From positions 310,001 to 374,000 of the forward strand of contig CALUVT010000001.1 of assembly GCA_944324345.1 (NCBI GenBank): 64,000 nucleotides of DNA. Direction: 5' to 3'. Of this stretch, positions 13,176-20,695 are shown one piece after another. Below the pieces are notes generated by a model. It worked only from the letters and a program-made list of their open reading frames with translations. It was not told the origin of the DNA and did not search any database. The translations under genes and the position numbers were made by a program. This DNA is from Candidatus Gastranaerophilales bacterium. GTDB taxonomy: Bacteria; Cyanobacteriota; Vampirovibrionia; Gastranaerophilales; Gastranaerophilaceae. How positions within the stretch are numbered: the first letter of the stretch is position 1; every line of letters starts with the position of its first letter.

Positions 13176-13916
13176 ATGAGAAAGATATTTTTGTTGTTTT
13201 CTATAATGCTTTTATTGGCTTCACCGTCATTTGCATCTAAGTACGTTAAAATTGAGCCGGAATTTCTTACTGCAGCACAAAGCAAAAATTATGAGACGGT
13301 AAATCAAACAATTGCCATAATTTTTAGTAAAATTAAACCAGTGGTCAAAACCGATAAATATCCGAAATATTACCACGATTTTACTTTGGTAAAGGATGAC
13401 GGTACGCAAAATAAAGCTTATCATTACGTGAAATCCGGCGGAGCTGAATTGATTTATACCTTAGATTCCAACGAATTAAAATATGTATCTTTCAGAAGGC
13501 CGGAACTTCAAAAATGCAGAATAATTTATGATTACCCGTCAGGAAATCTTCATGCCGTTCAGGTTTTCATATCTGAAACGGAGTCTTATGCTTTCAGTGC
13601 CGATGGGAAATATGTTGATTATTCCCCATATGTAAAAGAAGTCAAAGAAAAAGTTATAAAGAGTTGGAAGGTTCCGCCAAGAAAACAGATTGATGTTCTT
13701 GCAAAAGGTCAGAAAGATTTGCTTGTTCAGATTGCTGTAACTGTCGATAAAACAGGAAAAGTTAAAAAATGCAGAATCTTAAAATCCTCAAAAATAAAGC
13801 AGCTTGACGATAATGCAGGTTCTGCGATACGAGCAGCAGCTCCTTTTAAACCATTCCCTTCAAATTTTTTCAATGAAGAAATAGTTATTATATTAAATTT
13901 CAATTTTAGTTTATAG
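13176..13916 (+). CDS. secreted protein with C-terminal TonB-like domain
   Basis: This protein of about 246 residues has a clear signal peptide (M-R-K-I-F-L-L-F to P-S-F-A-S-K). The ATG at 13176 is set by AAGGAG ten bases upstream. Residues about 155-246 form a TonB C-terminal-type domain: V-K-E-K-V-I-K-S-W-K-V-P, then V-Q-I-A-V-T-V-D-K-T-G-K-V-K, L-D-D-N-A-G-S-A-I-R-A-A-A-P-F and P-F-P. It has no membrane anchor beyond the signal peptide, so it is not a classical TonB. It runs head-on into the TonB-like/zinc-ribbon gene of the adjacent operon, overlapping by 11 nt. It is probably related functionally to that operon (inference). Confidence 0.72.
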   Translation: MRKIFLLFSIMLLLASPSFASKYVKIEPEFLTAAQSKNYETVNQTIAIIFSKIKPVVKTDKYPKYYHDFTLVKDDGTQNKAYHYVKSGGAELIYTLDSNELKYVSFRRPELQKCRIIYDYPSGNLHAVQVFISETESYAFSADGKYVDYSPYVKEVKEKVIKSWKVPPRKQIDVLAKGQKDLLVQIAVTVDKTGKVKKCRILKSSKIKQLDDNAGSAIRAAAPFKPFPSNFFNEEIVIILNFNFSL

Positions 13917-14775
13917 TAATTTCATAGCTGCCATTATCAATTACAAACTTCATTTTAATTGTTTGTCCGCTGTACTCACTTGGCGGAGGCAGGTATTTGG
14001 GAACACTCATAAGCATATAATAGACTACATCATTAAGAGTTTTGTTATCTGATTCATGTGTAAATTTACGATTTATAAGTTTCCCAGTGCTATCTACCGA
14101 AAACGAAATTTCGCAGGTGCCGGAACCTGGTATACTGCCGGCTGCAAATTTTGAAAACAACGCGGCTCTAAGGTCTCCCTTGTATTTTAACATAGCAGAG
14201 CTGTTGGGGTTATAAGTCGGCCTGGAGGGTTTTGCAAGGTTACGTCGTTGCGTAACTTCTTTTTTTTTAGGGGTTGGGGGAGGGTTGTAAACTATTTCAT
14301 ACTCAGCAGGTTTTGACACTGTTGTGTGTGAAGAGTTTTTTTTTACGGTTTTGCTTTTATTCACATTATTATTTAAAGTAATATTCTGAGTCGGATTATA
14401 ATCTGAAGCTGTAGAAATGGGTTCTGTTATATTTATTTTTTCCGTAGACATGTTATTGACAGGATTATCTTTCCATATCTTTTCTATGTCGGGAATTTGC
14501 TTTGTAACCGCAGGTTTTGGCTTTGTTTGATTTGGGAATTTCTTTGTCGTTGCAGGCTTGATAGGTATAAGCCAAACTATTATAGAAATTATAATACACA
14601 AAGTAAAAAACAATTTTGATATAAGTTCAGATTTTTCATCCAGTGTCATATTTTTTATGTGTTTTTGTTTACTTGCAACCGGAGAATCCTCAATATAATC
14701 AAAGGTATTGTTTCCGCAATCACAATATTCCACTTTGTTTTTATATTCTGCTTTACATTCTTTGCATCTGTACAT
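13906..14775 (-). CDS. zinc-ribbon, membrane helix and TonB-like C-terminal domain protein
   Basis: This 289-residue bitopic protein starts with a zinc ribbon (C4-x2-C7, C18-x-C20). It has one membrane helix at about residues 52-70 (L-F-F-T-L-C-I-I-I-S-I-I-V-W-L), then a long Pro/Lys/Asn/Thr-rich stretch. The C-terminal domain at about 195-289 resembles TonB-C: Y-K-G-D-L-R-A-A-L-F-S-K-F, C-E-I-S-F-S-V-D-S-T-G-K-L, and L-P-P-P. The predicted topology is ribbon inside and TonB-like domain in the periplasm. It is the last gene of the vWA-FHA-TonB operon, starting 4 nt after the small membrane gene. Such a ribbon on a TonB-like protein is unusual. Confidence 0.72.
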   Translation of the reverse strand: MYRCKECKAEYKNKVEYCDCGNNTFDYIEDSPVASKQKHIKNMTLDEKSELISKLFFTLCIIISIIVWLIPIKPATTKKFPNQTKPKPAVTKQIPDIEKIWKDNPVNNMSTEKINITEPISTASDYNPTQNITLNNNVNKSKTVKKNSSHTTVSKPAEYEIVYNPPPTPKKKEVTQRRNLAKPSRPTYNPNSSAMLKYKGDLRAALFSKFAAGSIPGSGTCEISFSVDSTGKLINRKFTHESDNKTLNDVVYYMLMSVPKYLPPPSEYSGQTIKMKFVIDNGSYEITIN

Positions 14776-14779
14776 AATT

Positions 14780-14959
14780 TTATCCTATCATAAACAATCC
14801 GATTTTATAAATAACAAATACTATAAATAAAATTATAAGCATAATGATTATTATAGCTGTCTGTTTTATTATATCAAAATCTTTTCTTGCCTTAATAAAT
14901 TTTGCGACAAATGGAAATTCCATAATGAGTAATAGTATCAGACAAGCAATTTTAAACAT
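14780..14959 (-). CDS. tiny two-helix membrane protein (59 aa)
   Basis: This 59-residue protein has two hydrophobic helices (residues about 4-19 and 33-56) joined by the basic K-F-I-K-A-R-K-D-F loop. Its ATG overlaps the stop of the preceding gene as TAATG, and GAGGAG ends eight bases upstream of the ATG. The next gene follows 4 nt after its stop. No family is recognised. Translational coupling on both sides supports a real gene making a small subunit of the membrane complex encoded by this operon. Confidence 0.7.
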   Translation of the reverse strand: MFKIACLILLLIMEFPFVAKFIKARKDFDIIKQTAIIIIMLIILFIVFVIYKIGLFMIG

Positions 14960-15099
14960 TATTTACTCCTCACAAAAATTATATTTTCTAGCAGAATTGT
15001 TTTGTGCATTTGAGGTTTAAAGCTCACAATCAACACCGTAGAAATTCCGATTATGCATATTGCAGAGATTAAGATAATTAAAATTTTTTGTATGCTCAT
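14959..15099 (-). CDS. tiny single-helix membrane protein (46 aa)
   Basis: This 46-residue protein is mostly one hydrophobic helix (residues about 5-27) followed by a short basic tail. The ATG shares its A with the stop codon of the TonB-like gene upstream (TAATG), and its own stop overlaps the next ATG the same way. This double one-base coupling argues that it is expressed with the operon. No family is recognised. The size resembles the accessory small subunits of envelope complexes, but there is no ExbD/TolR aspartate in the helix. Confidence 0.65.
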   Translation of the reverse strand: MSIQKILIILISAICIIGISTVLIVSFKPQMHKTILLENIIFVRSK

Positions 15100-15920
15100 T
15101 AGTAAGTTATCCTTTCATAATCCGAGAACTGTTCCGGAGTTGAATATCTTTCTTCAGTTCTCATAATAAATCCTCCAATCACAACGGTTGAGGTTCTTTG
15201 TGAACCAAGAGGAAATTTTAAAATAGGTTTTCGTTGAAGATTTGCTATGGCAGGTTTAACTTTAGTTCTGGCATCTTCCATGTAATTCGGGTTAGAACAA
15301 AGAACTTTTATATTTGAAATATTACCAAACTTGTCAACAACAAATGTAAATGAAAATAATGTACCTAAAGGTGCATAGTCTATCTTAGCATCTCTCATGA
15401 TTTGATTTTGAAGGTTACTACGCCATTTATTCCAGGCAATGATTTCTTCTTGTTCTGTCATGTAAGGGTTTTTCTTCGTTTCAACTTGGTGCGGTTTTGT
15501 TACCGCTTTATCTACCGGCTTTTCAAGTTCAATAGGCTTTTCTTGTTCGGTTTGCTTTATTATTCTCTGCAAAAGCTCAAGTTGAGAAGTGTCCTGAGAC
15601 GGGATATTTTGGTGTGTTATTTTATTTTCTGTTCTTTTAATTCTTTGCGGTTCTTGTTGAATATATTTTGTTTCAGAAGCTACAGGTATTTGTTGTTTAA
15701 CCTCTACTGTTTTCTCTTGAATATTTTCATTATTTACAATTTTTGTTTTCGTTGTTGGTGCAACTGAAAGATCTTTTGTTGAAATGGTATCGCTAATTCT
15801 TGTCAGCTGAAAATTTTCATCTTCAATAATCATGGGCTGATGCATTTCAGGATGAATTCTTATTGTGAAGATGGTAAGAAATATAAATAAGATAATTGTT
15901 ATAACTTTAAGAAAATCCAT
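15099..15920 (-). CDS. TonB-like periplasmic-spanning protein
   Basis: This 273-residue bitopic protein has an N-terminal membrane helix at residues about 5-21. A long Gln/Lys/Glu/Thr-rich periplasmic stretch follows to about residue 155, then a TonB-C-like domain: W-N-K-W-R-S-N-L-Q-N-Q-I-M, L-G-T-L-F-S-F-T-F-V-V-D-K-F-G-N-I-S-N-I-K-V. TonB proteins carry proton-motive energy to outer-membrane transporters. Here the neighbours are not ExbB/ExbD, so the role may differ. The ATG follows the FHA gene stop by 2 nt (TAGTTATG), with no independent Shine-Dalgarno visible, so coupling is likely. Confidence 0.75.
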   Translation of the reverse strand: MDFLKVITIILFIFLTIFTIRIHPEMHQPMIIEDENFQLTRISDTISTKDLSVAPTTKTKIVNNENIQEKTVEVKQQIPVASETKYIQQEPQRIKRTENKITHQNIPSQDTSQLELLQRIIKQTEQEKPIELEKPVDKAVTKPHQVETKKNPYMTEQEEIIAWNKWRSNLQNQIMRDAKIDYAPLGTLFSFTFVVDKFGNISNIKVLCSNPNYMEDARTKVKPAIANLQRKPILKFPLGSQRTSTVVIGGFIMRTEERYSTPEQFSDYERITY

Positions 15921-15922
15921 AA

Positions 15923-17536
15923 CTAATCTTTATCTACTTTTGCGAGCAACTCGTCGCAGGCGTATATATCAAATTTTGTCTGACTCAGCATCATAGTTTC
16001 TGCAATCAGCAGTGCGGTCGGAACTAATGCTGCAACCAAACTTAAAAATATACCTTGCATATCTCCACCGATTTCAGTCATAAAGTATGAAACGTTCATT
16101 GCAAATTCAATAAATATGATTGCACAAGCAATTGCGAGAGATCTGTTTTTTTCAAAATTAAGCCTTCTAACACCCTCAAGCCCGTAAATTGTAACCCCGT
16201 GGTGTTGATAATCTGAAAATCCGTCCTGTTTAATAACCTGGGATCCTTGAACTTTTTTAGTACAGAAAAACGCATTAACAAAAGAAAAAAATGCAAATAT
16301 AATCAAGAATGTTGCGAGTACTAAAAATACAGGGCTTATTCTCAAACCCGAAATTCTCACCCATCCTGCAGCTTCAGGGAAGCACATAGCAAGAGTGTTT
16401 GAAACTCCATAAGCCAAAAATGGTGCTGTTAATATTCCAACAACAGTTTCTCCGACTGATTTTAGTTGAAGATTAAACATTTTATCTCTAATATATTGGA
16501 GTCTTGAGTTGCTCAAACTGTTTATATATCTTTCAATCCATTGTCTGTAAGATTTAATAACACTTTCGAAATCCTCTCTGTATTCGTATTTGTCAAGTGT
16601 CATAGTCCATTCGGTGCCGTTGCACTTGAAATACCCGCAGCTTATTGCAAGTACTGCCATGATGCCGGCAAAGAAGAATGAAATAAATATCGCAAATGTC
16701 ATGAAATCATTTAAATTCATATAATAAACAAGGTTTACTACATAAATTCCAAGCACAAAGATAAGTGAAAAAATTAACATAAAACTTTGAGCAAGTTTTG
16801 ATGATTTTGACAATTCTTTTTGAATATTGCTTTGAAGATATAAATATATTCCCTGTTTCAAAAGCAGGCAAATACCGTAAATTAATATTGTATAAACTCC
16901 CCAAACTTTGATATTTGTCGGGAGGTGAAGGAAGTTTGCGGATTCTTTTATTTCAAGTCCCATTAGGTAATTAGAAACTCCAAATGCACAAACCATGGCA
17001 CTTAAAAACATTGCTACATGAAGAAACACGCTTGTTTTCGCGTTTGTTGAAAGTTTGTTTTTTAAATCGTTTATATGGAACGCAACCTGTTTAATTATTG
17101 CAACACGTGCATTTTCCAAGTCTTCTTTTTGTTTTTCAAGTTTAACTTTGGTAACTGCGTTAACATCTTTCCCGTACAGACCTTTAATATCTTCTTCTGT
17201 TAAATCCTCTTTCCCGATTGATGTTATAGTTTTTGAGCCTGTATTTTGGTGTTCTTCAAGTAATCTTATGCTAACAAATTCTTCTGAACCTGCGAACATA
17301 AGTTTGCAAACATTTTTTACTTCAACTTTTTTTATCGGTTGTCCTTTAAAAAGTACTTTGTCACTCTGGAATGTGTTCATTATGACGCATTTGTTTTCCG
17401 TTGAGTTGTATTGAACAGTTAATAAAACGTCATATCCCGGATTTATAACTATGTCGCATCCGGGGTTTGTGCCAATGTTTACAACATCTTTCTTAAACAC
17501 TTTTTCTCCGGATAAAGTTGATATTATTACAGCCAT
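15923..17536 (-). CDS. FHA-domain multi-pass membrane protein
   Basis: In this 537-residue protein, residues about 1-90 look like an FHA (phosphothreonine-binding) domain: V-F-K-K-D-V-V-N-I-G-T-N-P-G-C-D-I-V-I-N and later C-V-I-M-N, with the usual S of the G-R-x-x-x-x-D loop replaced. A helical linker follows, then about eight membrane helices in two groups of four, separated by a soluble loop at roughly residues 305-375. No transporter family is recognised. The upstream gene encodes a vWA protein and the downstream one a TonB-like protein, so this is probably the inner-membrane core of their complex (inference). Shine-Dalgarno AGAGG. Confidence 0.7.
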   Translation of the reverse strand: MAVIISTLSGEKVFKKDVVNIGTNPGCDIVINPGYDVLLTVQYNSTENKCVIMNTFQSDKVLFKGQPIKKVEVKNVCKLMFAGSEEFVSIRLLEEHQNTGSKTITSIGKEDLTEEDIKGLYGKDVNAVTKVKLEKQKEDLENARVAIIKQVAFHINDLKNKLSTNAKTSVFLHVAMFLSAMVCAFGVSNYLMGLEIKESANFLHLPTNIKVWGVYTILIYGICLLLKQGIYLYLQSNIQKELSKSSKLAQSFMLIFSLIFVLGIYVVNLVYYMNLNDFMTFAIFISFFFAGIMAVLAISCGYFKCNGTEWTMTLDKYEYREDFESVIKSYRQWIERYINSLSNSRLQYIRDKMFNLQLKSVGETVVGILTAPFLAYGVSNTLAMCFPEAAGWVRISGLRISPVFLVLATFLIIFAFFSFVNAFFCTKKVQGSQVIKQDGFSDYQHHGVTIYGLEGVRRLNFEKNRSLAIACAIIFIEFAMNVSYFMTEIGGDMQGIFLSLVAALVPTALLIAETMMLSQTKFDIYACDELLAKVDKD

Positions 17537-17581
17537 TAATTTACCTCTTTTTTGTTACTTATTAAGAGTTTGTTTTAGTTT

Positions 17582-18256
17582 TTATCTTCCTAATGCGTGA
17601 AGAAATCGTCTTATCGACTTATCAATATTCTGTTCGGGAGAGACAATCAAATGATTTTCTCCTAAAACAGGAGTTAATTTTTCTTTAACAAGATCAAGTT
17701 TTTCGGGATGAGCATCCAAAAACATCATTGATATATCGGGTGCATATTTTTTTACATTTTGAACATTACTTGGTAATATGTCCCAATTAATTTGTTTTTC
17801 AACTGCCCCTTCGTTTTCAAGATCCCCAATTACTACAACAGCAGGGACATAACCATTTTTTTTCATGTTAAGAGCGTGAGAAAATGCTTTTTTCATTCCT
17901 ACGCCATAAGCGGTTCCATAATCTGTTTCATCATATTTTGTAAAAGCATCCATTGATTTGGTTATTGTGCTTCCATTCATTGGAGAACCTTCATATATAA
18001 GATATGCATCCTCTGAAACCCTTAGAATTTTTATTTGATCTTCAGGATCTAAAAGGTTGCAAATTTGTCTTAAAGTTTTTTTCTGTTGAGGCAGACGTTT
18101 TTGGTTTGATGCAGATGAATCTACAACAAATATAACAGCTGCCGGATGAAAATCATCAACCTTAATTTGTTTTAGTCCTGCCCATATAAATTTCAAGGTA
18201 ACAGAAAGTATAAGAATTATTAAACCTAATGTAATTAGTTTTTTATTTAACTTCAT
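17582..18256 (-). CDS. membrane-anchored von Willebrand factor A domain protein
   Basis: This 224-residue protein has an N-terminal helix at about residues 7-27, and the rest is one vWA domain with a complete metal site: D46-x-S48-x-S50 in V-V-D-S-S-A-S, T115 in Y-G-T-A-Y-G and D145 in V-I-G-D-L-E-N-E-G. With a basic N-terminus and one helix, the domain should lie in the periplasm, where it would bind a protein partner through Mg2+ or Mn2+. It is the first gene of the operon, with AGGCGG before the ATG and 45 nt before the FHA gene. vWA-FHA pairing is known from regulated secretion and ATPase systems, but no ATPase is present here. Confidence 0.8.
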   Translation of the reverse strand: MKLNKKLITLGLIILILSVTLKFIWAGLKQIKVDDFHPAAVIFVVDSSASNQKRLPQQKKTLRQICNLLDPEDQIKILRVSEDAYLIYEGSPMNGSTITKSMDAFTKYDETDYGTAYGVGMKKAFSHALNMKKNGYVPAVVVIGDLENEGAVEKQINWDILPSNVQNVKKYAPDISMMFLDAHPEKLDLVKEKLTPVLGENHLIVSPEQNIDKSIRRFLHALGR

Positions 18257-19891: not shown

Positions 19892-20695
19892 TTAATTGCT
19901 GTATGGGATTGCGTTTATTGGTTCAACAAGTTTAAGTTCAAAAGTTGTTCCATCAGGAATATTTACGTCTTTACCTCTTTGCATTGTCCCTCGTAATCCT
20001 CCACCTAAAGCTCCAATGCCTCCATATATTAACATATTTCTTCCCCAATTGTCGCTGCCCCCAAGTGCAGTAAAGGCTGCTCCAATTAGCATTGAACCTA
20101 AAGCTCCTATAACAACATCCCTTGTCATTTTTTTTGCACGTTCACTTTGTTCTTCAATATAAATTTTTTCTGTGGAAATTTGTATGATATTTCCGTTAGG
20201 CGTTAATATTTCATTGAAGCTAAATTCTACAGCTCCGCTTCCGTACGCGTAACCGGCATTTTGAGCATCAGTTGCTGTCCCATATACAAGACTTCCTGCC
20301 GGTGCAATTAAAATACCATTATAAACAAGGTTTTCTGAAAGAGTAGCAGTAAGTCTGTCATCTTTTTCCAAACTCCCAGAATTAATGCCAGAATCGAAAG
20401 TTACATGAAAAGTGGTTCCTGCAGGTATATATACAACATTTCCCAAAAGAGGTTTTGGTTGCGGCTCGTAGGTGTTATTTATGACTTCTTCCAGAATAAT
20501 AGGGGGTGTATAATTTGTTCTATCCTCGTTATGATTTCTTTTTTTTGTAAAATCATTATCAACAGGTGCTGATTGGACAGGTTGAAATTTCTTTCTGTCA
20601 AATTCAGCCTGAGCTTCATCACTAAAATCGTAAGATGCTATAGCCGGAAGAGTTATTATTTGAAAACATATAAAGAGAGACAAAATCTTTTTCAT
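19892..20695 (-). CDS. secreted protein with VirB10-like beta region and glycine-rich helical hairpin
   Basis: This 267-residue protein has a signal peptide (M-K-K-I-L-S-L-F to P-A-I-A-S). A polar linker leads to a beta-rich part with I-P-A-G-T-T-F-H-V-T-F-D-S and L-I-A-P-A-G-S-L-V-Y-G-T-A. This is similar in style to the C-terminal domain of VirB10/TrbI proteins. A glycine-rich hydrophobic hairpin follows (I-G-A-L-G-S-M-L-I-G-A-A and Y-G-G-I-G-A-L-G-G-G), then a final I-P-D-G-T-T-F-E-L-K-L. Function unknown; an envelope or outer-membrane role is likely. A TATAAT 4-9 nt before the ATG and no Shine-Dalgarno hint at a leaderless mRNA. Confidence 0.6.
   Translation of the reverse strand: MKKILSLFICFQIITLPAIASYDFSDEAQAEFDRKKFQPVQSAPVDNDFTKKRNHNEDRTNYTPPIILEEVINNTYEPQPKPLLGNVVYIPAGTTFHVTFDSGINSGSLEKDDRLTATLSENLVYNGILIAPAGSLVYGTATDAQNAGYAYGSGAVEFSFNEILTPNGNIIQISTEKIYIEEQSERAKKMTRDVVIGALGSMLIGAAFTALGGSDNWGRNMLIYGGIGALGGGLRGTMQRGKDVNIPDGTTFELKLVEPINAIPYSN

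Follow-up and report, generated by a model that had tools for sequence, protein, structure and literature searches.

Introduction

To our knowledge, all PMF-driven trans-envelope systems with TonB-like arms rely on a single motor superfamily. In the Tol-Pal and Ton systems, single-span TonB/TolA-like proteins with a disordered linker and a C-terminal domain give an envelope-spanning layout. Two classes of vWA force transducer coupled to TolQ-like motors have been proposed, in which a periplasmic vWA domain tethered to the inner membrane is linked to a polytopic membrane protein; in the first class SHLS, a motor-binding motif, lies in the membrane helix of the vWA protein, and in the second a pore helix with a conserved Asp is accompanied by an adjacent TolQ-like gene (PMC12204202). 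The Agl-Glt system of Myxococcus contains GltG, which joins an FHA and a TonB domain and interacts with the motor subunit AglR (PMC3169522).

Here we describe a gene unit from a 64,000-nucleotide stretch of DNA (the window) of a Candidatus Gastranaerophilales bacterium, a relative of cyanobacteria that lives in the gut and has a genome of 1.76 Mb. The unit has parts in common with each of these systems but could be assigned to no known system among those tested, and no publication on this gene set was found in a literature search that was itself incomplete. We propose, at about even confidence, that its products, T-A-B-C-D-(E)-F, form one trans-envelope complex in which B replaces ExbB/ExbD as the inner-membrane hub.

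Results

A sequence-only reading of the window had described six genes as one minus-strand unit, and all six ORFs lie where it placed them, at 13906-18256. They encode A, a vWA protein of 224 aa with an N-terminal membrane helix (17582-18256, (-)); B, a protein of 537 aa that combines an FHA fold with eight membrane helices (15923-17536, (-)); C, a TonB/TolA-like protein of 273 aa with a PxMH membrane anchor, a disordered linker and a C-terminal domain (15099-15920, (-)); D, a single-helix protein of 46 aa with a KPQMHK motif (14959-15099, (-)); E, a two-helix membrane protein of 59 aa (14780-14959, (-)); and F, a protein of 289 aa with a four-Cys N-terminus, one membrane helix, a linker and a TonB_2 domain (13906-14775, (-)). 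A and B are 45 nt apart, and the other four of the five junctions are as tight as had been described, with a gap of 2 nt between B and C, overlaps of 1 nt between C and D and between D and E, and a gap of 4 nt between E and F. The six-gene list misses the usual first gene of the unit, T (19892-20695, (-)), which encodes an exported TrbI/VirB10-C-terminal-like protein with a glycine-rich hairpin. It can be seen that T adjoins A directly, just upstream, in many relatives' loci; in the window the two are separated by two inserted genes. A further gene (13176-13916, (+)) is convergent with F, overlapping it by 11 nt, and encodes a periplasmic TonB_C protein with a signal peptide and no membrane anchor; most members of the genus have it beside these genes. 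Topology was assigned throughout from hydropathy, charge and models, and the structure models are of single chains.

The 'about eight membrane helices' noted earlier in B agree with AlphaFold2, which predicts eight long helices in the membrane region (residues ~165-520, 15977-17044, (-)), in a model of moderate confidence (mean pLDDT 84, pTM 0.69). When a deep alignment was used, the two four-helix halves aligned with each other (hhalign E 7.5e-4; the score was 30.2, while 40 shuffles reached no more than 19.7 and the reversed control 17.8); no internal repeat was visible with a shallow alignment, and the repeat alignment spans 52 columns, so that the step to a complete 4+4 repeat draws in part on the order of the helices. 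Conservation is highest in the second half. Residues K227, E363, T370, S379, E477, N481 and T507 are invariant in or near the membrane, as is a cytosolic loop with the pattern S432...K436-x-D438-G439...H446-G447 (S-x3-K-x-D-G...H-G).

B could be placed in neither a Pfam nor an NCBIfam family, and sequence searches of the PDB gave no match for it. The best fold matches to its membrane part had a Foldseek E of 0.1 and a VIA Z of 8.4, the latter to a designed helical binder, and the best rows, among them ABC exporters, a designed bundle and GltPh, were not convincing. B is thus not a plain member of a known transporter family by any of these searches. A resemblance to ExbB/TolQ/MotA that was picked out by eye (APFL..., LATF...) was not supported, as the hhalign scores of 18 against the ExbB profile of its own lineage fall inside those of column-shuffled controls (25-40 controls per comparison), and B has no match to PF01618. 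Eight helices arranged as a 4+4 repeat, with the invariant membrane charges K227, E363 and E477, might also be those of a transporter or channel, with A, C, F and T serving as periplasmic and outer-membrane accessories of an export or uptake pathway. The resemblance of T to the outer-membrane tail of VirB10 would suit such a pathway; however, B has no convincing match to a transporter family or fold in these searches, and the conserved unit has neither an ATPase nor a substrate gene, which leads us to regard this explanation as unlikely.

The TonB-like character that had been ascribed to C and F holds for both proteins. F scores above the cut-off for Pfam TonB_2 (7.4e-5; residues 198-277, 13945-14184, (-)), and the C-terminus of C aligns to F by profile (hhalign E 1.7e-5, probability 78). 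C, D and E gave nothing above threshold in Pfam, with no convincing family match for E, and sequence searches of solved structures gave nothing relevant for A, B or C and a weak TonB match for F. The zinc-ribbon-like part of F that had also been noted, CxxC-x10-CxC (residues 4-20, 14716-14766, (-)), has invariant cysteines at C4, C7, C18 and C20, and is placed in the cytosol by hydropathy and models. The anchor of C carries a juxtamembrane PxMH motif (HPEMHQ, residues 23-28, 15837-15854, (-)) in which P24 and H27 are invariant, and D carries KPQMHK (residues 28-33, 15001-15018, (-)). Alignment of D with the N-terminus of C gives an hhalign E of 1.6e-10 and a score of 50.3, where none of 40 shuffles exceeded 21.5. 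D, with the KPxMHK (PxMH) motif in common, is therefore a stripped-down relative of the membrane anchor of C. A second carrier of the PxMH module is found in genomes of other genera, some of them rumen-derived, in which a two-helix protein bearing KPDMHKPFS...KINKDGS...TTTKQ is encoded directly before T (L148:2799-3059, L150:4999-5265, L155:4407-4709).

The sequence-only reading had stated that ExbB/ExbD genes are absent. This holds for the unit but fails for the genome, where an ExbD-ExbD-ExbB-TonB cluster lies ~100 kb away (G000:C1:222464-226147; L163:5464-9147). A paralog of T (32% identity, E 3e-21) directly precedes this cluster, read as TonB-ExbB-ExbD-ExbD, so that a T-like gene is paired with TonB-like genes at two genome loci. 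T itself matches the TrbI profile with an E of 2.3e-6, at 28 bits against a curated cut-off of 35. Further upstream of the ExbB cluster there is another gene with a weaker resemblance to TrbI (L163:9171-9755), and TonB_2-like domains are also present in large ORFs of 1081 and 378 aa at G000:C1:207000 and C1:102048. A search of the genome for the plug domain of TonB-dependent receptors found none, and the usual TonB partner is therefore missing.

Since C and F have TonB-like tails, and ExbB is found in 60/60 genomes sampled of the order, the two proteins might be additional force transducers that draw in trans on the single, intact ExbB-ExbD-ExbD motor of the genome, with B as an accessory. The motor-binding motif SxxxH is kept by all 16 intact ExbB-linked TonB proteins (three further TonB ORFs, whose N-terminus is too short, were left out of the count), but it occurs in the membrane helix of none of 78 C and none of 63 F proteins. 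Moreover, in the loci examined the genes for C and F go with B, not with ExbB. Loss of SxxxH from C, F and A would not in itself prove independence from ExbBD, and we consider powering in trans to be rather improbable.

A was correctly described as a vWA protein with a full metal site. It scores above the cut-off for Pfam VWA_2 (E 1.8e-7), and the MIDAS residues D46, S48 and S50 (18107-18121, (-)), together with T115 and D145, are invariant in 12 relatives. The vWA domain is predicted from hydropathy and charge to be periplasmic. Searches with PADLOC and PHROGs gave no convincing match, the sole strong one being between an unnamed phrog and the vWA domain of A, and no relatives were found on viral contigs.

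These features allow the unit to be compared with the systems outlined above. It shares the single-span, linker-bearing arms and the envelope-spanning layout of Tol-Pal and Ton, but has no MotA/TolQ/ExbB or ExbD/TolR gene. It differs further in that C and F are without SxxxH, the genome is without a receptor plug and B is not related to ExbB by profile. A resembles the vWA force transducers (PMC12204202) in that its vWA domain, predicted to be periplasmic, is tethered to the inner membrane and the protein is linked to a polytopic one, but it belongs to neither class: SxxxH (SHLS) is found in the membrane helix of 0/78 A proteins, D or E occurs in the core of that helix in 1/78, leaving no pore-helix Asp, and B is not TolQ-like. 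The unit also adds TonB-like arms, an FHA domain and a TrbI-like part. Compared by architecture, the parts list of Agl-Glt overlaps that of the unit in FHA, TonB-like tails and vWA (the adhesin CglB). GltJ of Agl-Glt has a zinc-ribbon. However, GltG is a single-span FHA and TonB protein, whereas the unit has FHA on the eight-helix B and the TonB-like domains on C and F, and it lacks an AglRQS-type motor and the TPR and OmpA-like Glt genes. T is like VirB10/TrbI in its TrbI profile match, which is below the cut-off, and in its glycine-rich hairpin, but is exported and lacks the segments that VirB10 has in the cytosol and inner membrane. The conserved unit showed no ATPase of the VirB4/VirD4 type.

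The neighbours are conserved together among relatives, as the sequence-only reading required of a real unit. A and B are adjacent and on one strand at 118/118 loci, and B-C pairs are co-directional in 119/119, with a median B-C gap of 2 nt (122 loci compared). Gene order is retained within the genus, in the wider family and also between paralogous clusters, and is therefore not a chance arrangement. A-B-C-D-E-F is kept across 20 loci of the genus, with E missing from one; plsY usually lies upstream of these units, and the convergent TonB_C gene often downstream. Wider relatives have the order T-A-B-C-(D)-(E)-F, E being restricted to the window's genus and close relatives and D spread somewhat wider. 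The composition is not rigid, since some clusters have no F, and a few (L070, L077) consist of T-B-C-F without A.

A profile search found B in 180/261 good-quality genomes of the order. The matches listed belong to the window's own family, in 1-3 copies, bar one 66%-complete genome of another family (G050), and a phylum-wide sample contained no further lineage with B among the matches listed. The unit is therefore almost wholly limited to one Gastranaerophilales family, and is sometimes duplicated. The occurrence in G050 may reflect transfer or misbinning, as another genome of its genus is without B. Second copies of B at G159:C39 and G088:C10 carry an in-frame stop, which suggests that extra clusters may be decaying. 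Two further records (L089, L141) carry this Gastranaerophilales locus under the titles Fusobacterium sp. CAG:439 and uncultured Brachyspira, which look wrong.

Among 117 genomes sampled, A is present in 77, all of which also have B, and the A-negative genomes listed have no full-length B, even in genera where others carry both. The trees of A and B group the clusters in broadly matching fashion. Gene distances are correlated, but this reflects shared ancestry and is not taken as proof of interaction. The evidence for the unit is genomic, and would also be met with if the genes were merely co-transcribed and their products formed no complex; that gain and loss of A and B coincide, that paralogous clusters duplicate as units and that the two trees group clusters similarly makes this very improbable. 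We conclude that the genes behave as one unit, with order and co-occurrence kept among relatives.

The N-terminus of B (residues 1-94, 17255-17536, (-)) is undetected as FHA by Pfam, but AlphaFold2 predicts a beta-sandwich that matches the FHA domain of 6ccd (VIA-align Z 12.8, 92 residues, 2.1 A), and an FHA domain, as had been proposed, is therefore present. In every homologue, in a set of 24 diverse sequences as in one of 46 closer ones, T, S or N stands in place of the canonical Arg. The positions of Ser, His and Asn, which were located by aligning the sequence register to the FHA consensus, are likewise replaced. Despite the real FHA fold at the cytosolic N-terminus of B, it is thus highly doubtful that the domain reads a phosphorylated partner and that the complex relays the signal outward, as was first suggested, because the phosphothreonine-binding residues are gone. 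A stand-alone protein of 99 aa that corresponds to the FHA part of B is encoded in several genomes of genus g22 (L067:6021-6320, L068:6039-6338), in L068 next to TolC-like and EmrA-like genes.

Discussion

The proposal of one envelope-spanning machine survives in part: the genes behave as a unit and the parts span from cytosol to periplasm, but the cytosolic phospho-signal is not supported. In the complex that we favour, B would be the inner-membrane hub in place of ExbB/ExbD, with its degenerate FHA domain acting as a cytosolic protein-docking platform and its 2 x 4-helix membrane part holding the single-span subunits. C and F would be TonB/TolA-like arms that cross the periplasm, along which force or tension could be transmitted. 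D, as an armless copy of the C anchor, may occupy or adjust the same docking site through PxMH. A would present its vWA domain, with the metal site, on the periplasmic side, where it could grip the arms or a ligand, and T would probably be the partner located at the outer membrane or close to it.

The invariant membrane charges E363, E477 and K227 make it possible that B is energised by an ion gradient. A bolder version of the hub would make B a new type of motor in the inner membrane, driven by ions and not related to MotA/TolQ/ExbB, which would pull on the TonB-like arms and the vWA partner and perform outer-membrane work through T; this we put forward as a speculative possibility.

The B family appears to have no recognised or detectable relatives outside its own family. 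What sets the unit apart is that TonB-like arms are kept while the motor gene and the motor-binding motif have been dropped, and the 2 x 4-helix FHA protein B is found instead. The unit reveals either that hubs or motors of a second kind exist or that TonB-like arms can be used without being energised. It also offers a concrete target in a gut lineage that is common but largely uncultured, and in which the envelope has hardly been studied.
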